DNA from: Longimicrobiaceae bacterium
GTDB taxonomy: Bacteria > Gemmatimonadota > Gemmatimonadetes > Longimicrobiales > Longimicrobiaceae
Length of the DNA stretch: 64,000 nucleotides
Direction: 5' to 3'
Assembly: GCA_036375715.1 (NCBI GenBank)
Contig: DASVBS010000034.1
Location: 62,001 to 126,000 of the forward strand
Part shown: one piece after another, positions 35,153 through 48,086 of the stretch
Layout of the letters: each line of letters begins with the position of its first letter
How positions within the stretch are numbered: position 1 is the stretch's first letter
Notes under the pieces: generated by a model
What the model was told of the DNA's origin: nothing
The model's database searches: none
What the model saw: only the letters and a program-made list of their open reading frames with translations
Position numbers and translations under genes: made by a program

Positions 35153-35800
35153 ATGCAAGATGCGCTCGAACGGCTGAGGCAGTTGCGACTCGCACCGGTG
35201 ATCGTCATCGACGATCCCGCCGACGCCGAACCGCTCGCTGAAGCCCTGGTGGCCGGTGGCCTCCCCTGCGCGGAAGTGACCTTCCGGACCGCCGCGGCGG
35301 CGGAGGCGATCCGCCGTATGACGAAGGCGCAGCCGGAGATGCTGGTGGGGGCGGGCACCGTTCTCACCACCGAGCAGGCCGCCCAGGCGCGGGAGGCAGG
35401 AGCGCAGTTCATCGTGAGCCCGGGGTTCAACCCGGTCGTCGTGGATTACTGCCTCGAGCGGGGGATTCCCATCTTCCCGGGGGTCTGCACGCCGACCGAG
35501 ATCGAGGCGGGGCTGCAGCGTGGCCTCAAGGTCCTCAAGTTCTTCCCTGCGGAGCCGGCGGGAGGGCTGTCGTACCTGAAGGCGATCTCGGCTCCCTATT
35601 CGATGGTGGAGTTCATCCCCACGGGTGGGATCAACGCGGAGAAGCTGCCCGCGTACCTTTCCTTCCGCAGCGTGGTGGCCTGCGGAGGGTCCTGGATGGC
35701 ACCGAGCGACTGGATCCGCGCGGGACAGTTCGACAGGATCCGCGAGGAGACCGCGAAGGCCGTTGAAGCAATCAGACAGACGACCGGGGAAAGAACATGA
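35153..35800 (+). CDS. eda: 2-dehydro-3-deoxyphosphogluconate aldolase (copy 2, in hexuronate cluster)
   Basis: 215 residues. The Schiff-base Lys129 is in KVLKFFPAE and the catalytic Glu41 in [21 protein letters not shown] and FIPTGGIN complete the barrel. It cleaves KDPG to pyruvate and glyceraldehyde 3-phosphate, the last step of hexuronate breakdown. The ATGA overlap with kdgK means the kinase that makes its substrate is translated from the same coupled message. It is clearly a paralogue of, not a recent duplicate of, the aldolase at 15018: the motifs differ (KFFPAE versus KLFPAD). Confidence 0.94.
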
Positions 35801-36825
35801 AGCGTGTGGTGACGTTCGGGGAGATCATGCTGCGGCTGAAATCCCCGGGGCACGAGAGGCTCTTCCAGTCGCCAGTGCTCGAGGCGACCTTCGGTGGGGG
35901 CGAGTGCAACGTGGCGGTCTCGCTCGCCAACTTCGGTGTTCCGGCCTCCTTCGTCACCGCGGTGCCGGACAACAACCTGGGAGACGCGGCGATCGCCGAG
36001 GCACGGCGCTTCGGGGTGGACACCACCTTCATCCGGCGGCAGGGTGAGCGGCTGGGGATCTACTTCCTCGAGACCGGCTCGAACCAGCGACCCTCCAAGG
36101 TGACGTACGACCGGGCGCACTCCTCCATCGCCACCGCCCGCCCGGGGGACTTCGACTGGGACGCAATCCTGGCTGACGCGGGGTGGTTCCACATCACCGG
36201 CATCACGCCCGCGCTGAGCCAGAGCGCGGCGGACCTGGCGCTCGAGGCGGTGCAGCAGGCCCGGGCCAAAGGGATCCCCGTGTCGTGCGATTACAACTAT
36301 CGCAAGAACCTCTGGAAGTACGGCAAGTCGGCTCCCGAGGTCATGCGGGAGCTGGTCAAGCACGTGACCGTGGGGATCGCGAACGAGGAGGACTGCCAGA
36401 AGTCGCTCGGCATCGAGGTCGACGTGGATGTCCAGTCGGGCGAGCTGGAGACGGAGAAGTACCGGCAGATGGCCGAGCGCGTGATGCGCGAGTTTCCCAA
36501 TCTCGAGAAGCAGGCGATCACCCTGCGCGAGAGCCGCAGCGCCGATCGCAACGGCTGGGGGGCTTGCCTGCACAATGGCACCGACTTCCTGGTCAGCCGC
36601 AAGTACGAGATCACCGATATCGTGGACCGAGTGGGCGGCGGCGATTCGTTCGCCGCCGGGCTGATCTACGGTCTGCTGAGCTACGATGACGACCAGCAAG
36701 CGCTCGAGTTCGCGACCGCAGCCTCGTGTCTGAAGCACACGATTCCCGGTGACTTCAACCGTGTCAGCGTGGCCGAGGTGCAGGCCCTGATGAAAGGCGA
36801 TGCCAGCGGCCGCGTCCAGCGATAG
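35797..36825 (+). CDS. kdgK: 2-dehydro-3-deoxygluconate kinase
   Basis: 342 residues, PfkB fold. [24 protein letters not shown] with [18 protein letters not shown] is the KDG-kinase form of the substrate end. [16 protein letters not shown] is typical of this subfamily. The ATP end has [16 protein letters not shown] and [19 protein letters not shown] with the catalytic Asp in GGGDSF. It phosphorylates KDG from UxaA and UxuA to KDPG for Eda. Its ATG lies inside the eda stop (ATGA). Confidence 0.95.
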
Positions 36826-36836
36826 ACGACATTCCG

Positions 36837-36869
36837 CGCAGCGGGCGACCTCCGCGATCGCCCGCTGCG
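36837..36869 (+). promoter_or_regulatory. intercistronic hairpin between kdgK and the transporter gene
   Basis: Perfect twelve-base arms CGCAGCGGGCGA and TCGCCCGCTGCG with a nine-base loop, 40 bases before the transporter start. No T run follows. It may set the relative level of transporter and enzyme messages. Confidence 0.5.
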
Positions 36870-36909
36870 ATTCCCGTACGCCCCCCTTCCACGCGGCAAA
36901 GGAGTTTGA

Positions 36910-38289
36910 ATGGATTCGAAAGAGAGAAACCCGGGCACGGAGTCGGTCGAGCTCGATGCGGCCAATGCCGGGAGCGCCGGGGCATCCGCAATCGCGCAAG
37001 CCGCCGAAGGCGTTCCGGGAGCGATCAAGGGGAAGCGCACCGGTTATCGGTGGGTAATCTGCGGTATGATCTTCCTGGCGACGACGATCAACTACATCGA
37101 TCGCCAGGTGATCAGCATCCTGGCTCCCTACCTCACCGACCTGTTCAACTGGTCGGAGGTGGATTACGCCACGATCGTACAGGCGTTCAGCATCTCATAC
37201 GGCTTCGGCTACCTGTTGATGGGTCGCCTGAGCGATATCATCGGCGTGAAGCGGGGCTACTCTCTCTTCATCGGCGGGTGGAGCCTCGCCGCGATGGCGC
37301 ACGCGGTGGCGCGCACGGTGCCGGGCTTCGCCTTTGCGCGCGGCCTGCTCGGCATCAGTGAGGGCGGAAACTTCCCGGTCGCCATCAAGGCGGTCGCCGA
37401 GTGGTTCCCCAAGAACGAGCGGGCGTTCGCGACCGGGATCTTCAATGCGGGCACGAACGTCGGGGCGATGCTGGCGCCCGTGCTGGTCCCGATGATCACC
37501 CTCACGCTCGGATGGCAGTGGGCCTTCATCCTGACCGGCCTGCTCGGCTTCGTCTGGATCATCGCCTGGTGGGCGATCTACCGCTCTCCGGAGGATCACC
37601 CGAGGGTGTCAGCCGCGGAGCTGGCGTACATCCGGAGCGATCCGCCCGAGCCCACGCATAAGGTGGGCTGGGGGAAGCTGCTCACCTACAAGCAGACCTG
37701 GGCGTTCGTGGGGGCGAAGTTCTTCACCGACCCGATCTGGTGGTTCTATCTGTTCTGGATGCCGAAATTCCTCGATACGAACTTCGGCCTCTCCCTGAGC
37801 GAGTTGGTCTGGCCGCTGCTGACGATCTACGTCGTGGCCGACGTCGGGTCAGTGGCGGGTGGATACGTTTCCGGCGCGCTCATGAACCGCGGTTGGTCGG
37901 TGAACATGGGGCGTAAGATCGCGATGCTGATTCCCGCCCTGTTGATCGTCTTCACCGTCTTCGCCCCGCTGGCAACCACCATGTGGATGGCGGTCGCGTT
38001 CGTGAGCATGGCGGCCGCCTCGCACCAGTGGTGGTCGGCCAACCTGTTCACGACCGCCAGCGACATGTTCCCGCGGTGGGCCACCGCTTCGGTGGTGGGG
38101 CTCGGCGGGTTCGCCGGATCGATGGGAGGGTTCCTCTTCCAGTGGCTCACCGGGCAGATCCTGGAGGCCACGGACAGCAACTACACCGTCATCTTCATCA
38201 TCTGCGGCCTGGCCTACGTCACTGCGCTGGGGATCTTCCACATCATCGTGCCGAACCTGGAGCCGGCGAAGATCGAGAAGCCGGCCTGA
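36910..38289 (+). CDS. exuT: hexuronate MFS transporter, ExuT-like
   Basis: 459 residues with ~12 membrane segments after a ~45-residue polar N-terminal extension. MIFLATTINYIDRQVISILAPYL and GRLSDIIGVKRGY (the MFS motif A loop) mark the anion:cation symporter branch that includes ExuT. RGLLGISEGGNFPVAIKAVAEWFPKNERAFATGIFNAGTNVGAMLAP is highly characteristic of hexuronate carriers. It should import galacturonate and glucuronate by proton symport. It ends the hexuronate gene run and is followed by a strong hairpin. Confidence 0.92.
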   Translation: MDSKERNPGTESVELDAANAGSAGASAIAQAAEGVPGAIKGKRTGYRWVICGMIFLATTINYIDRQVISILAPYLTDLFNWSEVDYATIVQAFSISYGFGYLLMGRLSDIIGVKRGYSLFIGGWSLAAMAHAVARTVPGFAFARGLLGISEGGNFPVAIKAVAEWFPKNERAFATGIFNAGTNVGAMLAPVLVPMITLTLGWQWAFILTGLLGFVWIIAWWAIYRSPEDHPRVSAAELAYIRSDPPEPTHKVGWGKLLTYKQTWAFVGAKFFTDPIWWFYLFWMPKFLDTNFGLSLSELVWPLLTIYVVADVGSVAGGYVSGALMNRGWSVNMGRKIAMLIPALLIVFTVFAPLATTMWMAVAFVSMAAASHQWWSANLFTTASDMFPRWATASVVGLGGFAGSMGGFLFQWLTGQILEATDSNYTVIFIICGLAYVTALGIFHIIVPNLEPAKIEKPA

Positions 38290-38535: not shown

Positions 38536-39372
38536 TCAACCAGCTGCCGACGCAGCCGCCTGCAATCGCTCGAATGCGACCTGCGCCGCGGCGGGTGCCG
38601 CGTGGCTGTGCCGGGAGAGCTCCACCGAAGCGACTCCCTGGTAATTCACTTCGCGCAACGCTTCCAGGATCGCCCGAAAATCCAGCTCGCCCTCGCCGAT
38701 CTGGAGATGGTCGTGGATCCGCCCGCGCATATCGTCGAGGTGCACGTTGCGCAGGTCGTCAGCGTAGCGGCGGATCGCCTCCCCGGGGCCGTAGTCCTCG
38801 GTGCAGCGCACGTGACCGACGTCCAGTGTGAGGCCCAGGGCGGGATGGGAGACGGCGTCGCGCAGCCGCTCCCAACCCTCCATCGACTCGACGAACATAC
38901 CCGGCTCCGGCTCGAACGCGACACCCACCCCCAGGGTTGCAGCACGCTCACAGAGCTCGTGAACCGCGGGAACGAGCCGCCCCCAGCCCTCCTCCTCGGT
39001 TACTCCCGCCGGTAACCCGCCGGACCAGATCGAGAGCTGAGGCGCGCCGATCTCCGCTGCGATCTCCAGGCAGCGGCCCAGCATCTCGAACCGCTGACGG
39101 CGCTCGCCGGGATCCGCCTCCAGCAGCGTAGGCCGGTGCTTGCGGCGAGGGTCCAGAACGAACCTGGCCCCGGCCTCGACGACGGGGGCCAGGTTCAGTT
39201 CCTCCAGGCGCCGCCGCAGGCGGCGCATATCGGCAGTGGTGGACGAGAAGGGCGGGAGGTGGTGGACATCGGGAGTGAGCGCGACCGCCTGGTAGCCGAT
39301 CGCGGCCAGGATCTCCAGCGCATCGTCCAGCCGGTGATGAGCGAACCCGTTGGTGTTGTAGCCGAGACGCAT
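38536..39372 (-). CDS. TIM-barrel sugar isomerase/epimerase-like protein (EboE-like)
   Basis: 278 residues of the AP-endonuclease-2/xylose-isomerase-like barrel. Metal ligands are visible as Glu in VAFEPEPG, Asp/His in LTLDVGHVRC, His in NVHLDDMRGRIHDH and Glu in ASVELSRHSH. MRLGYNTNGFAHHRLDDALEILAAIGYQAV is the barrel start. It is the last gene of a six-gene minus-strand operon, two bases after inositol-3-phosphate synthase. By position and fold it corresponds to EboE of ebo clusters, whose reaction is unknown. An isomerase or epimerase acting on a cyclitol or sugar is the likely activity. Confidence 0.82.
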   Translation of the reverse strand: MRLGYNTNGFAHHRLDDALEILAAIGYQAVALTPDVHHLPPFSSTTADMRRLRRRLEELNLAPVVEAGARFVLDPRRKHRPTLLEADPGERRQRFEMLGRCLEIAAEIGAPQLSIWSGGLPAGVTEEEGWGRLVPAVHELCERAATLGVGVAFEPEPGMFVESMEGWERLRDAVSHPALGLTLDVGHVRCTEDYGPGEAIRRYADDLRNVHLDDMRGRIHDHLQIGEGELDFRAILEALREVNYQGVASVELSRHSHAAPAAAQVAFERLQAAASAAG

Positions 39373-39374
39373 GC

Positions 39375-40592
39375 TCAGGAGCCGCCCCCGGCGGCCCGCA
39401 GCGTTCCTCGCCTACCCCCGGTATCCTTCGCCGCCCACTCGAGAAGCGCATCGTACTGCCGGTGCAGATTCATCTCTTCGGTTCCCTCGGGTGTCTTGAA
39501 GAAGGCCGCGAGCGCCGCAATCTGACCCGCTTCTCCCCGGTGCTTGGCCACCGTAATCAGCCTGGCGAGGTCCAGCACCAGAGGCGCCGCCAGGACTGCG
39601 TCGGTGCCTTCCCAGGTGAACTGCATCCGCATCCGGTGACCGCCCCAGCCGCGGAACTGGATGAAGTCCCAGGCAACCTTGTGGTCGGCCAGGGGAGGGA
39701 AGTAGTCGATCCGTACGTCACCAGCCGGACTGTAACCGAGGCACCGCTCCAGGACTCCCTGCTTGGACGCCACCTTGCTCGCCGCGTTCTCGGCGTAGGA
39801 GAGGACCTGACCGTCGGTGTTTCCGAGGATGTTCGTGCCGTACCAGCCCTCCACCTTCAGGCCGCGGATGGCGAACATGGGAGCCAGGGTGGTCTTCACC
39901 AGTGTCTCGCCGGTCTTGCCATCGCGCCCGGCCACGGGGAGGCCGCGAGTCTGGGCCATCTCCACCAGGGCGGGCAGGCTGGCACCGGTGGAAGGAGTGA
40001 AGTTGACGTACGGCATCCCCAGCGAGAGCGCCGCGTAGGCATAGAGGGTGGAGGCCGGGATGCGCGGGTCGTCCTCCTCGATCCCGCGCTCGAAGCGGGC
40101 CAGCGACCATTCGAAGAGGGAGGGATCGCAGAGCGGCTCTGTGGAGGCGACGTTCACCACCACGGTCTGCTCGCCGTCGGCGAAGCGCTCGAGATCGGCG
40201 GTCACCCGTGCGATGGCATCGCGCGCTGATTCCTGGAACAGCTCGAGCGATTCGGCGCCACCGAGAGCTTCCACGGCAGCACCGGCGCGACGCAGGATTC
40301 CCACGGTGAGGGGCGCCTGCCGCAGGACGGGAAGCACCCCCTCCAGTACCGAGGGCGCAAAGACCGCGCGCGTGGAAGCGCTATCGGCGGCCGCCTCCGC
40401 CACCGTCCCCGCCCGGATGTCGCAGCCGCCGAAGGCGATCTCCTCGACCGGCGGCAACCCGGGAAGCGTATCGAAGGGGGGCCGCGTAGTGATCACTCCC
40501 TCGAGCGGCAGGAGTTCCTTCTGCGCAGCAACGGTACCGACGGCCGTGGCGGTCGCGATGGTGCCACGGGCGCCGATCATCCAGATCTTCAA
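39375..40592 (-). CDS. inositol-3-phosphate synthase family protein
   Basis: 405 residues. The NAD-binding start IWMIGARGTIATATAVG, the central YVNFTPSTGASLPAL and the block GRDGKTGETLVKTTLAPMFAIRGLKVEGWYGTNILGN (here read in parts) define the myo-inositol-1-phosphate synthase family. VRIDYFPPLADHKVAWDFIQF is the lid region. The family turns glucose 6-phosphate into inositol 3-phosphate by an NAD-dependent oxidation, aldol closure and reduction. In ebo clusters this position is held by a dehydroquinate-synthase-type sugar-phosphate cyclase, so this is a different cyclitol-forming enzyme in the same slot. It sits between a UbiA prenyltransferase and a TIM-barrel gene. Confidence 0.88.
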   Translation of the reverse strand: MKIWMIGARGTIATATAVGTVAAQKELLPLEGVITTRPPFDTLPGLPPVEEIAFGGCDIRAGTVAEAAADSASTRAVFAPSVLEGVLPVLRQAPLTVGILRRAGAAVEALGGAESLELFQESARDAIARVTADLERFADGEQTVVVNVASTEPLCDPSLFEWSLARFERGIEEDDPRIPASTLYAYAALSLGMPYVNFTPSTGASLPALVEMAQTRGLPVAGRDGKTGETLVKTTLAPMFAIRGLKVEGWYGTNILGNTDGQVLSYAENAASKVASKQGVLERCLGYSPAGDVRIDYFPPLADHKVAWDFIQFRGWGGHRMRMQFTWEGTDAVLAAPLVLDLARLITVAKHRGEAGQIAALAAFFKTPEGTEEMNLHRQYDALLEWAAKDTGGRRGTLRAAGGGS

Positions 40593-40644
40593 AGTCTGTC
40601 TCCAATCGAAAAGGTAGGCCCGCGCCTGCCCGTTCCCGCTCCGA

Positions 40645-41505
40645 TCAGCTGATGGGGATCAGCTTCCGCCCCCAGCGAACGAGCGCGAGTAGCGGCGGGA
40701 AGATGAGCGCGCTTCGGCCAGGAGAACGCGGCGCGGCCAGCGCGGCGTCCAGCGCGGGAATGGCGCGGATCATGGACCCGACTGCAGGGCCGACGGCGGC
40801 CGGGCCTGGCTCGGCGACGGCGCGGCGCACGGCCCCTCCCGCCAGTGCCGCAGCGGCGATCGTCCAGGGAAGCGCACGGCGCCCGCCGCGCACGGCCGCA
40901 GCTGCCAGCGCGGCGCCACCGACTACGACACCCGGGAGCGGCGTCCTGTTCCCGGTTTCCTCCGTTTCACCGCGCGCGAGTACGGTCAGGCCCGCCACGT
41001 AGCCTCCCAGGATCGCCGCAGCTCCGAGCCCTCTTCGCAGGCCGCCGCCCCGCGCGGCCGCTTCCGCGCCGGTGAGCAGGGAAAGGGCGCGACACGCCCC
41101 CATCGCCGCTGGCCCAAGCGTCGTCCGTTTGAGCGCGAAGTTGTAGGCGAGCACGGACGCCGCCAGCGCGGGTCCGGTGCGGCGCGCGCCGGCGCTGCGA
41201 GCGAGCATCAATCCCAGCCCCAGCAGCCCGGCGCCGAGCGCGGCCGCCTGACCTACCCCGACGGCACCGGAAGGGATGGGCCGCTCGGGACGCTCGCGCG
41301 CATCCTCCTCCCGATCGGCAACGTCGTTCAACGCCATGCCGGCCAGATAGGTGGAGGCGGAGGCCAGCACCACCCCCGCCGCACGGCCCACGCTCAGCCG
41401 ACCGCTGGCGACCAACATGCCCGTGAGCGGATCGCCCACCGCGGAAAAGACCGCCGGAGCCCGCACCAGTCGCAGGTACGGGAGAAGGCGCTCAGAGATC
41501 TTCAT
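40645..41505 (-). CDS. UbiA-family prenyltransferase (EboC-like)
   Basis: 286 residues, mostly hydrophobic with about eight membrane helices. The first Asp-rich motif is N60-D61-x-x-D64-x-x-x-D68 in LNDVADREEDARERPERPIPSG, and YNFALKRTTLGPAAMGACRALS is the second conserved region with a reduced Asp motif, as is usual in the SCO1461/EboC branch. Such enzymes transfer a prenyl chain to an acceptor at the membrane. The next gene in the operon makes an inositol phosphate, so a prenylated cyclitol product is possible (inference). The start lies eight bases after the phosphatase-like gene. Confidence 0.87.
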   Translation of the reverse strand: MKISERLLPYLRLVRAPAVFSAVGDPLTGMLVASGRLSVGRAAGVVLASASTYLAGMALNDVADREEDARERPERPIPSGAVGVGQAAALGAGLLGLGLMLARSAGARRTGPALAASVLAYNFALKRTTLGPAAMGACRALSLLTGAEAAARGGGLRRGLGAAAILGGYVAGLTVLARGETEETGNRTPLPGVVVGGAALAAAAVRGGRRALPWTIAAAALAGGAVRRAVAEPGPAAVGPAVGSMIRAIPALDAALAAPRSPGRSALIFPPLLALVRWGRKLIPIS

Positions 41506-41513
41506 CGTCGTGG

Positions 41514-42896
41514 TCAGGGAGAATCGGTGAAGACGTGGCGCAGGATGATTTCCCGCACCGTGGTCGCCTCCACCGGTCCATCTGGAAGCAGCTCGGGTGC
41601 GTTCGACATGATCAGGGGACCGACCTGTGGATCGTCGACCGGTCGTCCGTGCGAGCCCTTCACCAGGGAGGCATCGAGCGGCACCACCTCCAGCAGGTAG
41701 CGGAAGCCGAGCGCCTTCTTCGCCAGCGTCAGCCCTACTTTCAGCGGCAGGGCGCGGATCTCGGGATCGGTGAACAACTCGACCGGGTCGTAACCAGGCT
41801 TCCTGTGGATGTCTACGGTGCGCGCATAGTCAGGCGCGCGATCGTCATCGAGCCAGAAGTAGTAGCTGAACCACCGATCGGGACGGGAGATGGCCACCAG
41901 CTCTCCCGAGCGCGGGTGATCGAGCCCTCGCTCGGCTTTCCCGGCGTCGTCGAGGACTACCTCGATCCCCTCCTGCGCTTCGAGCAGGGCCTTGACCTCA
42001 GCGACGCGCTCCGGCCGCCGCACGTACACGTGCGCGATCTGGTGATCCGCCACCGCAAAGGCCTCGGACGCACCCGCGTCCAGCTTTTCGCTGCCCAGCT
42101 CCTCCCGCACACGGATCAGCCCGGCGCGGCGGAGCACCCGGTTGATGTGCACGGCGCCGCGCACCGGGGTGATTCCGTACTCGGATAGGACCACCACGTG
42201 GGCCCCGTCCCGCTCGAAATGCTCGATCAGTTCACCGCAGACGCCATCGATCTGGCGGAGATCGCGCACGATGGCCGGGTCTTCCGGGCCTATCCGCTGC
42301 AGGTTGTAGTCGAGGTGCGGGAGATAGACGAGGGTGAGGGTCGGCCGCCTGGTGTCGTATACGTACCGGCTGGCATCCGCCACCCACTGGGTCGAGCGGA
42401 TGTCGGCGTTGGGCCCCCAGAAGTGAAAGAGGGGGAAGATCCCGAACTTCTCGGTCAGCTCCGCCCGCAGCTCGGGTGGCTCTGTGTAGACGTCCGGTAG
42501 CTTGCGACCGTCGGCGGGGTACATCGGGCGGGGCGTCGCGGAGAACTCGACGTCCGCGTACATGTTGTACCACCAGAACATCTGGGCGCAGGTGAAGTGT
42601 GGATCCCTGCGCCGCGCCTCGTGCCACAGCTTCTCGCCCTGCACCAGGTGGTTGCTCTGGCGCCACAGCCAGACTTCCGCCAGGTCGCGGAAATACCACC
42701 CGTTGGCGACCACTCCGTGATCCCGCGGGAGCGCGCCGGTAGTGAAGGTCGCGTGCGCTGTCGTGGTGACTGCCGGAAGTACTTCGCGGAGGGCGCGAAC
42801 CGCCCCCCGCGATGCGAAAGCCTGCAGATTGGGTGTGTGTTCTCCGAGCAGTGCCGGCGTCAGCCCAACAACGTCGAGGACGACCGTCCTGCGCAT
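41514..42896 (-). CDS. alkaline phosphatase-fold phosphodiesterase/phosphatase (EboF-like)
   Basis: 460 residues from the ATG at 42896, which overlaps the TatD-gene stop (TGATG). TVVLDVVGLTPALLGEHTPNLQAF is the first metal site; PAVTTTAHATFTTGALPRDHGVVANGW carries the Thr nucleophile. LTLVYLPHLDYNLQRIGPED and VVVLSEYGITPV provide more metal ligands, with Glu in place of the usual Asp-His in the second, a feature of this branch. There is no signal peptide, so it is cytoplasmic. It probably removes phosphate from, or splits a diester of, an intermediate of the operon's pathway. Confidence 0.87.
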   Translation of the reverse strand: MRRTVVLDVVGLTPALLGEHTPNLQAFASRGAVRALREVLPAVTTTAHATFTTGALPRDHGVVANGWYFRDLAEVWLWRQSNHLVQGEKLWHEARRRDPHFTCAQMFWWYNMYADVEFSATPRPMYPADGRKLPDVYTEPPELRAELTEKFGIFPLFHFWGPNADIRSTQWVADASRYVYDTRRPTLTLVYLPHLDYNLQRIGPEDPAIVRDLRQIDGVCGELIEHFERDGAHVVVLSEYGITPVRGAVHINRVLRRAGLIRVREELGSEKLDAGASEAFAVADHQIAHVYVRRPERVAEVKALLEAQEGIEVVLDDAGKAERGLDHPRSGELVAISRPDRWFSYYFWLDDDRAPDYARTVDIHRKPGYDPVELFTDPEIRALPLKVGLTLAKKALGFRYLLEVVPLDASLVKGSHGRPVDDPQVGPLIMSNAPELLPDGPVEATTVREIILRHVFTDSP

Positions 42897-43732
42897 CACG
42901 CGTTCGCCACCACCGCCTCCTGACCGCGGGCGGGGAGCCGGAACTTCGGCGACTGCCCCAGGAAGGCCGCCGGGTTGCTGTAGATCACCTGCCGGATCAG
43001 CTCCTCCGAGTGTCCCCGCCGGCGCATCGCCAGAGCGAACTGAGGCACGGCAACCGGCACGCTGGGTCCCCAGTCGCAGGCCGAGGCGACGCAGATGCGC
43101 TCGGGGCCGTGCTCCTCGATGATGTCGATCGCGCGCTCGGGGGAAACCTTCGTCTGCGGATAGAGTGTGAGCCCGGTCCAGAAGCCATTGTCGAGGATCA
43201 TCTCAACGGTGTGCTCCTCGGCGTGATCCACCATGACCCGGCTGGGGTCGAGGTCGGGGAACTCGAGCAGCACGTCGATGGTGGCGCGCGTCCCCTTGTA
43301 CTTGTCCTCGAGGTGCGGGGTGTGGATGTGGATCATCTGGTGTTGCTCGAGGGCGAACGCGACGTGATCGCGGAACGTCTCGATCTCATTGCGCGTCACC
43401 CGATTCATCCCGATCTCGCCGATGCCGAGCACGTTGGGTCGGTCGAGGTACTTGGGGATGCGCCGCAATACCTCCCGCGCGAGCTCCCGGTCCTCTCCCT
43501 CCTTCGGGTTCAGGCAGAGCCAGGTGTAGTGCTGGATGCCGTACTGGGCGGCGCGGGCGGGCTCGAAGGTGGTGAGCTGCCGGAAGTAGTCCTCGAAGCC
43601 GTCTGCCGAGGAGCGATCCCAGCCTGCCCAGAAAGCCGGTTCAGTCACGGCCACGCAACCCGTCAGCGCCATCTGCTGATAGTCGTCGGTGGTCCGCGAG
43701 ACCATGTGGGCGTGCAGGTCGATGTATTCCAT
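42896..43732 (-). CDS. TatD-family metal-dependent hydrolase (EboB-like)
   Basis: 278 residues, amidohydrolase-type TIM barrel. Metal ligands are His7 and His9 (YIDLHAH), Glu in GIGEIGMNR, His in IHIHTPH, His in VMVDHAEEH and Asp in ASACDWG. The ATG overlaps the stop of the preceding small gene by one base (TGATG), and its own stop overlaps the next start, so the block is tightly coupled. The fold matches EboB of ebo clusters. The substrate is unknown; unlike DNase TatD proteins, it is unlikely to act on DNA given this context. Confidence 0.87.
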
Positions 43733-44037
43733 CAGGGTTGCTCCTTCCAGCGGTCGTACGCCCCTTTGGCCCCTTTCTGATCGAGCGCGGCGCGGGGCTC
43801 GGTGGTGGGGTCGCTGAAGATCATCTGTATCCGCTTTACCCGCCCGGGTTCATCGGAGCACAGGACCTCGAGCGCTTCCCGGAAGGCCCGCATGCGAAAG
43901 TCAGTGCGGACCGCGGGGTCGCCGCTGCGATCGAGCCGATCGAGGTAGGCGGCCACGTCGAGCAACCGGGTCCGGTTTTCGATGAAGTACTCGTCGATCA
44001 GCCCGGTTCCTGACCTGGGCGATGGGATGGCGGACAC
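43732..44037 (-). CDS. small unassigned protein heading the ebo-like operon
   Basis: 101 residues from a GTG that follows AGGAGG, which fixes the start. It is predicted to be largely helical and soluble ([26 protein letters not shown]), with a conserved-looking tail [23 protein letters not shown]. It has no membrane segment, signal or metal motif. In ebo clusters this place is taken by EboA, a helical protein about twice as long; I see no clear match and do not assign it. The one-base overlap with the TatD gene shows it belongs to the operon. Confidence 0.6.
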
Positions 44038-44185: not shown

Positions 44186-45196
44186 TCAGGCCTGCGCGTC
44201 GCGTGCGAAAGCGGCGTCGAATGCAACCCCCGAGGCGGGGAAGTCCACTGAGCGCACGAAGCCGCACGCCTCCTCCGCGCCGTGCTCGCGGTCCATCCCG
44301 ATGTCCTCCCACTCGATCGAGAGCGGACCATCGTACCCTGCGCGGTTGAGCGCCCGGATCACCTCCTCGAAATCGATGCTTCCGCGCCCCAGCGAGCGGA
44401 AATCCCAGTACCGGTCGCGGTGCCCGAACGGGAGGTGACCACCGAAGACGCCCGAGGGCTTCGGGTGCTCCGACCACCAGACGTCCTTCATATGGACGTG
44501 GTAGATGCGGTCGGCGAAGCGAGTAATGAAGGCGGCGTAGTCCACCCCCTGGTAACCGAGGTGGCTGGGATCGTAGTTGAAGCCGAAGGCCTCACGCCGA
44601 CCCACTGCCTCGAGCGCCCTCTCCGCGGATGAGATGTCGAAGGCGATTTCGGTCGGGTGCACCTCGAGCGCGAAGCGCACACCCACCTCGTCGAAGACAT
44701 CCAGGATCGGGTTCCAGCGATCGGCGAAATCCTGATACCCGGCATCGATCATGGAGTCCGGCACCGGCGGGAAGCTGTAGAGCAGGTGCCAGATCGACGA
44801 GCCGGTGAAGCCGGGCACCACCTTCACGCCGAGCTTGGCCGCGGCGCGGGCGGTGTTCTTCATCTCCTCCGCCGCCCGCTGGCGCACCCCCTCCGGATCG
44901 CCGTCGCCCCACACCCGCTCCGGCAGGATGGCCTTGTGCCGCTCGTCGATCCGGTCGCACACCGCCTGCCCGACCAGGTGATTGCTGATCGCATACACCT
45001 CCAGGTCGTAGCGGGCGAGCAGGTCACGGCGCCCCTGGCAGTAGTCGTCCTCCGAGAGCGCCCGCTCCACGTCGAAGTGGTCGCCCCAGCACGCCAGCTC
45101 GAGCCCATCGAATCCCCACGAGGAGGCCTTCTGTGCAAGCTCCTCCAAGGGAAGATCGGCCCACTGTCCGGTGAAAAGTGTGACTGGTCGGGACAT
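44186..45196 (-). CDS. sugar phosphate isomerase/epimerase family TIM-barrel protein
   Basis: 336 residues. The barrel starts with [39 protein letters not shown]. Metal ligands: Glu in [10 protein letters not shown], Asp/His in [11 protein letters not shown], His in [11 protein letters not shown] and Glu in [11 protein letters not shown]. Proteins of this type, next to Gfo/Idh/MocA oxidoreductases as here, are common in catabolism of keto-sugars and inositols. The downstream hairpin separates it from the ebo-like operon, and an AT-rich repeat pair separates it from the oxidoreductase upstream. Confidence 0.84.
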
Positions 45197-45233
45197 AACG
45201 CAGATTGGTTTGAGTTTGCAAAGTGAAAGCGGA

Positions 45234-45329
45234 AATTACGAATTACGAATTATGAATTACGAATTGGAAGTCAGAAAGTCTGCCGCGAAAACGGAAAACC
45301 GCGAAGCAGTAATTCGTAATTCGTAATTA
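45234..45329. repeat. inverted pair of GAATTAC/GTAATTC heptamer arrays
   Basis: Left arm 45234-45265 has four AATTACG-type units (the third reads AATTATG) and part of a fifth. Right arm 45309-45329 has GTAATTC twice and GTAATTA. The arms are reverse complements and enclose 43 bases rich in A and G. The right arm reaches into the stop codon of the oxidoreductase gene at 45327. Confidence 0.92.
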
Positions 45330-46490
45330 AAGCTTTATGTCCACCCAGGTGCGCGATTCATTGCTCTTGAGCACCGCCTCCACCACCTTCACCTCGACGT
45401 GGCCGTCCTCGAAGGTCGGGAAGCCGAGCGGGTCGGGGCGGTTGCCGACACCGGCGCGGATTGCCTTATAGAAGTTCAGGAACAGGTTGCGCGGGCCGTC
45501 GGGGTAGCCCTCCGGGTGGCCGCCGGGATAGTGGGCGTAAGTGCGCGCGTTGGCGTCGAGCAGCGACGGGTCCTTGATGAGGACCTCGTTGGGTTGGTCG
45601 CGGTAGCCGATCCAGAGCTGGTTGGGCTCCTCCTGATTCCAGGCGATCGCCCGCTTGCTGCCGTCGATCTCGAACCACTGCCGGTTCTTCCGCCCGGCGC
45701 TCACCTGCGAGACCGTCAACGAGCCGCGCAACCCGCCGGAGAACTCCAGCAGCAGGAAGCCTCCGTCCTCAGTGTCGATGGCGACCTCGTCGTACTCCTG
45801 CGGGGCGCCCAGCTCCTTCCCCTTGTAGGTCTCCACCTCCTGGCGCGGCTTCTTGCGGGTCTCATGCACGCGGAAGAGCTGCGCGAAGACACGCTCGATC
45901 TTACGGCCGGTGACGAACTGCATCAGGTCGCACCAGTGGGAGCCGATGTCCGCAATGGCGCGGGAAGCGCCGCTGATCTTCGACTCCAGCCGCCAGTTGT
46001 AATCGGTGTCGTGCAGCAGCCAGTCCTGCAGGTAGTGCCCCTGCACGAGGTGCAGGTCGCCGAGCTCGCCTCGCTCCACCATCCCCCGCGCGTGCTGGAT
46101 GATGGGGTAACCGCGGTAATTGAAGTTGATCGCGGTGAGGACCCCCTTCTCCCGCGCCAAGCGCACGAGGTCCGCCGATTCCTCCGAAGTCAGCGTCAGC
46201 GGCTTCTCCGAGAGGACGTGCTTGCCGGCCGCGATCAACTCCCGGTTCACCTCGTAGTGGAGGTTGTTCGGCGTGCAGTTGTGCACCGCGGTGATATCCG
46301 GGTGCCGCAGGATGTCACGCCAGTCGTCGTAGACGTGGGGGATGGCGAAGTTGGCGGCCAGCTCCTCCGCGCGCGGGCGATCGATCGAGGAGATCGCCAC
46401 CACGTTCACCCCCGGCACACGCCGGAGCCCGTCCACGTGGGCCGCTCCCATGAAGCCGGACCCGATGACCGCAACATTAATCGGTTCCAT
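45327..46490 (-). CDS. Gfo/Idh/MocA family oxidoreductase (1)
   Basis: 387 residues. The Rossmann start INVAVIGSGFMGAAHVDGL binds NAD(P), and the family motif is Glu95-Lys96-Pro97 in VLSEKPLTL. NWRLESKISGASRAIADIGSHWCDLMQFVTG is the substrate-binding region with the catalytic Asp/His in DIGSHWCD. Members oxidise or reduce a sugar or cyclitol hydroxyl. The sequence differs from its neighbour at 46621 (EKP versus DKP) but the order of blocks is the same, so the two are paralogues. They are probably successive or alternative dehydrogenases of one pathway. Confidence 0.9.
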   Translation of the reverse strand: MEPINVAVIGSGFMGAAHVDGLRRVPGVNVVAISSIDRPRAEELAANFAIPHVYDDWRDILRHPDITAVHNCTPNNLHYEVNRELIAAGKHVLSEKPLTLTSEESADLVRLAREKGVLTAINFNYRGYPIIQHARGMVERGELGDLHLVQGHYLQDWLLHDTDYNWRLESKISGASRAIADIGSHWCDLMQFVTGRKIERVFAQLFRVHETRKKPRQEVETYKGKELGAPQEYDEVAIDTEDGGFLLLEFSGGLRGSLTVSQVSAGRKNRQWFEIDGSKRAIAWNQEEPNQLWIGYRDQPNEVLIKDPSLLDANARTYAHYPGGHPEGYPDGPRNLFLNFYKAIRAGVGNRPDPLGFPTFEDGHVEVKVVEAVLKSNESRTWVDIKL

Positions 46491-46522
46491 TGAGTCGAAC
46501 CTTAGAGATTAGTGTGAAATTC

Positions 46523-46607
46523 TGAATTTTGAAGTATGAATTTTGAATTAAGGCCGAGATATGCGCCCCGCAATCAATTCAAAATCAAAAATTCAAAGTT
46601 CAAAATC
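46523..46607. repeat. AT-rich inverted repeat with GAATTTT units
   Basis: Left arm 46523-46549 contains TGAATTTTGAA twice-like units; right arm 46576-46607 has AATTCAAAATC and related units in inverse orientation. Twenty-six G+C-richer bases lie between. The unit differs from the GAATTAC heptamer but the layout is the same, in the gap between two oxidoreductase genes on the minus strand. Confidence 0.85.
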
Positions 46608-46620
46608 ATGAACGCTATTT

Positions 46621-47781
46621 TCACCCGCCCGGGGGCGTATATCTCGCCTCTACCCAGCCTCCCTCACGTCCGCTGCGGATGGCGGTCTCGATGAAGTGCA
46701 CGCCGCGCGCGCCCTCCTGCACGGTGGGGAAGTCGGTGTCGAACTCACCCGGCTGCTCTCCCGCGATACGGGCGGCGATGGTGCGGGCGGCGTTGCGGTA
46801 GATGTTCGCGAAGGCTTCGATGAAGGCTTCGTGATGCCCGAAGGGGATGCGCGAGTTGTGGCGAACGATGGGGTCGAGGTAGTCGTTGCCGCGCTTGTAG
46901 ACTCGTTCGGGCTGGTCGACGTACATCACGCGGAGGTAGTTGGGATTCTCCTGCCGCCAGTCGAGGCCCGCTTCGGTGCCGTAGATCCGCACGCGCAGCC
47001 CGTTCTCCTCACCGACGGAAATCTGCGAGGAGTAGATGATGCCGCGGGCGCCCCCCTGGTAATGAACCAGGAGGTTGGCGTCGTCCTCCAGCTCGTATCC
47101 GGAGCCGAAGGTGGTGGTGTCGGCGCAGACCGCCTCCAGCTCCAGACCGGTGATGTAGCGCGCCAGGTGCCACGCGTGCAGCCCGATGTCACCGACGGCC
47201 GAGGAAATCCCGGCGATCTTGGGGTCGAGACGCCACATGTTGATGCCGGCCGCCTTCGCCAGCCATCCCTGAGGGTACTCCGCCACGATCTTGCGAATCG
47301 TCCCGAGCTTCCCCTGGCGCACCAGCTCGCGCGCCTGCTTGACCATGGGAAAGCCGGTGTAGTTGTGGGTGAGGACGAAGACAGCCTGCTTCTGCTCCAC
47401 CAGCCGGCAGAGCTCCTCGGCGTCCTCCAGGGTGGTCGTCATCGGCTTGTCGCAGACGACGTGGAAGCCCGCCTCGAGAAAGGCGCGAGCAATCTGGAAA
47501 TGGGAGACATTGGGTGTTACAATGGAGACGAAGTCGATTCGCTCGCCCTCCGGGAGTCGACTCTCCCTCTCCACCATCTGCTCCCAGGAGTCGTACACGC
47601 GGGACGGATCCAGGAAGAGCTCCCGCCCTTGCTGACGTGATTTCTCGGCCGACGACGAGAAGGCGCCCGCCACGAGCTCGATCTCTCCGTCCAGGGCGGC
47701 CGCCTTACGATGTACCCCGCCGATGAAGGCGCCAGGACCTCCTCCTACCATCCCGTAGCGAATCTTTCGATCCAGAGGCAT
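46621..47781 (-). CDS. Gfo/Idh/MocA family oxidoreductase (2)
   Basis: 386 residues from the ATG giving MPLDRKIRYGMVGGGPGAFIGGVH, the NAD(P)-binding start. VVCDKPMTTTLEDAEELC has Asp-Lys-Pro for the usual Glu-Lys-Pro. NMWRLDPKIAGISSAVGDIGLHAWHLARYITG carries the Asp and His expected at the active site. This subfamily (with GGGPGAFIG) is typically encoded beside TIM-barrel sugar isomerases and a second oxidoreductase, as here. The substrate is not determined; a keto-glucoside or inositol is most likely. Confidence 0.9.
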   Translation of the reverse strand: MPLDRKIRYGMVGGGPGAFIGGVHRKAAALDGEIELVAGAFSSSAEKSRQQGRELFLDPSRVYDSWEQMVERESRLPEGERIDFVSIVTPNVSHFQIARAFLEAGFHVVCDKPMTTTLEDAEELCRLVEQKQAVFVLTHNYTGFPMVKQARELVRQGKLGTIRKIVAEYPQGWLAKAAGINMWRLDPKIAGISSAVGDIGLHAWHLARYITGLELEAVCADTTTFGSGYELEDDANLLVHYQGGARGIIYSSQISVGEENGLRVRIYGTEAGLDWRQENPNYLRVMYVDQPERVYKRGNDYLDPIVRHNSRIPFGHHEAFIEAFANIYRNAARTIAARIAGEQPGEFDTDFPTVQEGARGVHFIETAIRSGREGGWVEARYTPPGG

Positions 47782-48086
47782 TGTCGCGTGTGGTCTGTGG
47801 TGGGGTTGCGGAGTGGTGTCGTGTCGCGGGGCAAGGTACGTGGCCTCGAGTGTGGTTTCAAGGCATCCCCCAAACGGCCTCCGCGCGGTTTTTGTAACCA
47901 TCTGTAGGCGCAGTGGCTTGGGACTCGTAATTGCAGCGTTTCTCGAGCAGCCCGACGAAGCGACGGTACGGGGCCGCTTCAAATCATCTGCAGAATTCCT
48001 GGCGCCTCCTCCCGTACTGTGACGAGACGAGCCAGGAACCCCGATCTCCTCGGGGCACGCCGGGTCACCTGCCAGGGGAGGGGAGC

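Follow-up and report, generated by a model that had tools for sequence, protein, structure and literature searches.

A predicted inositol-3-phosphate synthase in the place of EboD in an ebo-type operon of a Gemmatimonadota genome

The evidence that ebo genes act in the export or synthesis of a protective metabolite comes solely from Nostoc and Pseudomonas mutants (PMC6282210), and the proposals made for the product, an isoprenoid-cyclitol (PMC5133447) and a lipid carrier of scytonemin precursors (PMC6282210), are hypotheses. In Deinococcus and other taxa a short gene, eboG, substitutes for eboA (Yurchenko et al. 2016, PMC5133447). The locus described here shares homologues of EboG, EboB, EboF, and EboE, as well as a UbiA prenyltransferase, with this EboG subtype of the operon, but it has no EboD, carries an inositol-3-phosphate synthase (MIPS) and an extra TIM-barrel protein (hereafter T), has a UbiA of another group, and has its EboE outside the operon. 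A second comparable system is an automatically annotated cluster on Streptomyces plasmids (L073, L074, and L097), listed as inositol-3-phosphate synthase, SCO3242 prenyltransferase, sugar phosphate isomerase/epimerase, EboA, TatD, EboE, and phosphodiesterase. MIPS, UbiA, T, EboB, EboE, and EboF are common to that cluster and our locus, whereas the Streptomyces cluster has EboA instead of EboG, holds EboE within the cluster, differs in gene order, and encodes an EboB that is 44% identical. Among single enzymes, the MIPS of Archaeoglobus fulgidus (1u1i) resembles the operon's enzyme over its full length with conserved Asn and Lys residues, though the A. fulgidus gene stands alone rather than in an ebo operon. 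Ubi-297 of marine Flavobacteria (PMC9235831) is also the UbiA prenyltransferase of an ebo cluster, but one described with EboD, and the acceptors tested for Ubi-297 were quinoline-type aromatics.

The window, by which we mean the whole stretch of 64,000 nucleotides that was analysed, belongs to a Gemmatimonadota genome whose closest matches are Gemmatimonadetes MAGs and Gemmatirosa. Six tightly spaced minus-strand open reading frames span 38536-44037, at the coordinates given by the first-pass annotation, and are as follows, in operon order:

43732..44037, minus strand: predicted EboG, 101 aa, GTG start; replaces EboA in the EboG subtype
42896..43732, minus strand: EboB, TatD-like metal hydrolase, 278 aa; TatD_DNase domain, placed in the EboB tree
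41514..42899, minus strand: EboF, alkaline-phosphatase-fold phosphodiesterase/phosphatase, 461 aa, GTG start; PF01663 at 215 bits
40645..41505, minus strand: EboC-like UbiA prenyltransferase of the MIPS-associated group, 286 aa; UbiA Pfam domain, UbiA trees
39375..40592, minus strand: predicted inositol-3-phosphate synthase (MIPS), 405 aa, TTG start; PF07994 and PF01658, in EboD's place
38536..39372, minus strand: T, extra xylose-isomerase-like TIM barrel, 278 aa; PF01261 at 139 bits

The junctions measure, in order, -1, -4, 8, 52, and 2 bases (negative values being overlaps); the 52-base gap had been noted correctly, but the five close junctions of the first-pass annotation are four, out of five in total. 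TatD_DNase, Phosphodiest (PF01663), UbiA, NAD_binding_5 with Inos-1-P_synth, and AP_endonuc_2 each score above their Pfam cut-offs. An equivalent gene set is present in other Gemmatimonadota (L029, L030, and L079), in identical or permuted order, and the order EboG-EboB-EboF-UbiA-MIPS-T is found in two MAGs and plasmid 2 of Gemmatirosa kalamazoonensis, with a divergent EboE adjoining. Together with the retention of EboG in 17 loci (see below), this conserved gene set indicates that the operon is not a chance arrangement. Promoter and terminator scans and an Rfam search of the operon gave results no better than chance. The flanks of the operon (35797-38289 and 44186-47982 of the window) are sugar-related, encoding a 2-keto-3-deoxygluconate-type kinase, an MFS transporter, two Gfo/Idh/MocA oxidoreductases, and another TIM barrel; the Gemmatirosa operon is flanked by similar TIM-barrel and Gfo genes, and a Haladaptatus cluster by Gfo and TIM-barrel genes.

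The 101-residue protein had no Pfam or NCBIfam matches. Its tblastn relatives in the plasmid collection were confined to Gemmatirosa and two Deinococcus plasmids, on which they sit between a gene annotated '3-dehydroquinate synthase' (EboD) and TatD (EboB). The protein is conserved across 17 aligned loci, adjoining EboB, and EboG-like genes of planctomycetes lie directly upstream of EboB. From position and sequence, and independently of any published EboG alignment, we identify it as the predicted EboG, which would fill the place taken by either EboA or EboG in the canonical operon. A remote EboA was also considered, and the comparison of EboG and EboA profiles was negative (probability 0.2%), in agreement with PMC5133447. 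An AlphaFold model built from 4 sequences reached a pLDDT of 61, which was insufficient for searching by fold.

EboB and EboF, the other retained components of the canonical operon, are placed within the Ebo families by phylogeny, bearing out the earlier claim that the operon is ebo-type and has an inositol-phosphate synthase at the EboD position. The window EboB shares 67-71% identity with that of Deinococcus, and its nearest neighbour in the EboB tree comes from a member of the same family whose genome is EboD-type (L090, 81% identity). EboF is 58-61% identical to the EboF of EboD-type clusters in Deinococcus and Alphaproteobacteria and clusters with EboD-type EboF in its tree. A true EboE (TIM barrel NF035939, 461 bits) is encoded on a separate contig of the window genome (G000:C81), outside the operon. 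EboB, EboF, EboG, and EboE of this genome all group with EboD-type ebo operons.

EboD itself is absent from both the operon and the genome. With an EboD query taken from G008, for which the reference match in G002 scores 463 bits, the window genome returned only two cyclase matches, both AroB-like, at 34-36% identity and 144-150 bits; most relatives have a single cyclase match similar to these two. Since EboD, a usual member, was searched for and is lacking, we do not class the locus as a canonical ebo operon. The enzyme in its place contains both MIPS domains at full length and above cut-off (PF07994 and PF01658), aligns with the A. fulgidus MIPS along its whole length at 419 bits, and gives a weak, partial alignment of 89 bits with the five-membered-cyclitol synthase 6k96. 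Residues N254, K273, K277, K305, and K366 are conserved, which we take to correspond to the catalytic N255, K274, K278, K306, and K367 of the A. fulgidus enzyme. By these sequence features it is predicted to be an intact MIPS of the Archaeoglobus type. A further MIPS homologue (C60, 42%) is encoded in the window genome and belongs to a type common to most members of the family, while the operon type is confined within the family to the window genome (G000), G002, and G005, all of which are among the family's four EboE-bearing genomes. A Methanomicrobia archaeon MAG (L031) encodes a MIPS 47% identical to that of the window, with no further ebo gene within 21 kb.

The last gene, T, had been read as EboE, an assignment that fails on three counts: T does not match the EboE model, the 461-bit EboE lies on C81, and in Streptomyces both proteins are encoded within one cluster. 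T is 46% identical to its orthologue, the isomerase of the Streptomyces cluster, and is a xylose-isomerase-like protein that travels with MIPS. The acidic residues and histidines conserved in it are potential ligands of a metal.

The affinities of the UbiA protein differ from those of its operon neighbours. Its best model is NF045897 (SCO3242), where it scores 178 bits and falls short of the 260-bit cut-off; against NF035940 (EboC) it scores 127 bits with a cut-off of 250 bits, a value that the Deinococcus (107) and Azospirillum (89) EboC proteins likewise fail to reach. In trees it groups with MIPS-type UbiAs, with actinomycetes neighbouring (support 93/93), unlike the genome's EboB, EboE, and EboF, which group with EboD-type proteins. 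This suggests that UbiA, MIPS, and T, which adjoin one another in the operon, were imported as a module, although a topology that constrains the Gemmatimonadota UbiA to the EboD type was not rejected (p-AU 0.127), which counts against this model. A strict rule by which UbiA type equals cyclase type had seemed true on 42 rows (100/100), with two long rows dropped and two odd rows (L088 and L089) reassigned, and it broke down once more planctomycetes were added. The exceptions on the MIPS side are the UbiAs of four EboD-type planctomycetes and a long-branched Aureibacter EboC, and two Gemmatimonadota MAG contigs (L088 and L089) have mixed UbiA and cyclase types. The former contig (C585) belongs to G002, a MAG of the window's family with 6% contamination, and places EboD-EboE beside a MIPS-side UbiA, while on a second contig of the same MAG (C223, L024) MIPS and T accompany another UbiA. 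Either one organism has two cyclases or the MAG is contaminated, and the case counts against our model. The two contigs had been considered as a dual-cyclase locus joined within one UbiA gene, but the fragments overlap and differ, and so represent two genes.

MIPS-type clusters were also sought elsewhere, and the operon is not a one-off. EboB was found in 3/249 Gemmatimonadota, 15/296 Actinomycetota, and 192/246 Planctomycetota genomes, the last figure suggesting a widespread, core function in planctomycetes. Actinomycete EboB loci (L075 and L099-L113) have MIPS in the cluster in 13/16 cases and EboD in 0/16. The MIPS type is the ebo form of the sampled actinomycetes and of most sampled planctomycetes. 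Actinomycetes are perhaps not uniform, however, since the published description of Saccharomonospora ebo clusters gives a generic eboA-E gene list, EboD among them (PMC9235831). Haloarchaeal plasmids combine TatD, two TIM barrels, UbiA, MIPS, and phosphodiesterase, and the Haladaptatus cluster has no annotated MIPS nearby. EboD-type clusters occur in Deinococcus, Alphaproteobacteria, Mycetohabitans, and Aureibacter. In planctomycetes (e.g. L122-L161), EboB usually lies beside EboA or EboG and the remaining ebo genes are often dispersed; several planctomycete EboB matches are interrupted by a single in-frame stop (e.g. G624:C1:22615 and G737:C2:1685177). Two actinomycete genomes, G023 and G400, one of them a Microbispora, have two EboB loci each (L075/L104 and L105/L109). 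On two Streptomyces plasmids, a gene of the ScyD/ScyE family, named for the cyanobacterial scytonemin cluster, lies immediately upstream of the MIPS-type ebo cluster (L073, 6514-7716; L074, 6466-7665).

Of the 246 Planctomycetota genomes, many of which are probably incomplete MAGs, 50 had EboD and 137 an ebo-type MIPS, with a single genome containing both (Fisher p 7e-20), at thresholds that we chose ourselves (E up to 1e-90 for EboD and up to 1e-80 for ebo-type MIPS). Restricting the count to the 192 EboB-positive genomes leaves 47 with EboD only, 126 with MIPS only, 1 with both, and 18 with neither cyclase, the last counting against the model. T follows MIPS closely, occurring in 134 of the 246 genomes, 121 of them among the 137 with MIPS and 3 with EboD; in planctomycetes with both EboB and EboE, T accompanies MIPS in 82 and EboD in 0. 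Because Fisher's test is blind to shared ancestry, we used trees alongside it. The cyclase label switches at least 10 times over the 81 rows of the EboB tree. A planctomycete-only tree, with EboD presence and MIPS presence scored separately, has 7 changes, and on its supported branches about 6 independent pairs show the two traits opposed in nearly every case (sign test median p 0.03). Taken together, the exclusion pattern and the repeated switches argue that MIPS with T is a recurrent replacement of EboD. No paper linking MIPS or inositol to ebo genes was found in the open literature searched, a set excluding subscription papers and preprints. In that literature the replacement is thus undescribed, although the Streptomyces genes had already been annotated automatically and the prenyltransferase already has an NCBIfam model.

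The best explanation, and one that we consider probable, is that the locus represents an EboG-subtype ebo operon of the MIPS type, in which a UbiA-MIPS-T module replaced EboD, with EboG, EboB, and EboF retained in place and EboE elsewhere. Its product would be a membrane prenyl-cyclitol. MIPS would convert glucose-6-phosphate to 1D-myo-inositol 3-phosphate, T would isomerise or epimerise the resulting cyclitol (phosphate), and the membrane UbiA would attach a prenyl chain to the remodelled cyclitol. This last role is proposed because the nearest non-ebo models act on a non-aromatic phosphopolyol: geranylgeranylglycerol-phosphate geranylgeranyltransferases, which have an acceptor of that kind, are among the next-best NCBIfam models after the two ebo models. 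EboC has also been placed close to a geranylgeranylglycerol-phosphate geranylgeranyltransferase-type enzyme (Klicki et al., PMC6282210), whereas an EboC relative prenylates quinoline acids rather than cyclitols (PMC9235831), which counts against the model. EboF may remove or exchange the phosphate, EboB and EboE may modify the product, and EboG may be an accessory subunit. The resulting membrane prenyl-cyclitol would serve the function that the EboD-dependent product has elsewhere, such as protection or the carrying of exported metabolites, as proposed for scytonemin precursors. The mutual exclusion with EboD suggests that the two products are functionally equivalent, and the changed UbiA type that the acceptor is chemically different.

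We doubt, but regard as possible, a closer equivalence, in which EboD and MIPS with T make one identical cyclitol headgroup; the substrate of EboD would then be a hexose phosphate, or its product a ring resembling inositol. Exclusion and repeated swaps while EboA/EboG, EboB, EboE, and EboF stay unchanged are consistent with such a headgroup, and the MIPS-side UbiAs of some EboD-type planctomycetes imply that the acceptor may be shared; against it, the change of cyclase is mostly accompanied by a change of UbiA, and EboD is closest to sedoheptulose-7-phosphate cyclases (PMC5133447), whose proposed substrate conflicts. It is unlikely that the MIPS of the operon has diverged to form another ring product, in the manner of the five-membered cyclitol-phosphate synthase of aristeromycin, and begins a dedicated secondary metabolite. 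Such homologues are known, one with a structure (6k96), and the second homologue on C60 could provide ordinary inositol, but the 419-bit full-length match to the A. fulgidus enzyme far exceeds the partial one to 6k96 and every residue checked matches MIPS. Very unlikely, in our judgement, is a mere supply of free inositol by MIPS and T, as osmolyte or for phospholipid, with the ebo genes as neighbours by chance or co-regulation: the sugar-acid catabolism and Gfo/Idh/MocA genes around the operon and the frequent dispersal of the planctomycete genes would fit, but neighbourhood cannot account for the exclusion of EboD and MIPS over 246 genomes or for the tie between T and MIPS.

For the ebo product the papers found offer hypotheses, and for the substrate of EboD a guess. 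The chemistry of MIPS is predictable, and the MIPS-type operon thus offers a defined entry point to the pathway, in a form that is also present in the genetically tractable Streptomyces. More generally, we tentatively hypothesize that EboD and MIPS with T are interchangeable routes into one prenylated-cyclitol membrane-lipid pathway, found in the plastids of some algae as well as in haloarchaea and many bacteria. If this were true, the product of EboD could be worked out from the chemistry of inositol, and most Planctomycetota would have the pathway.
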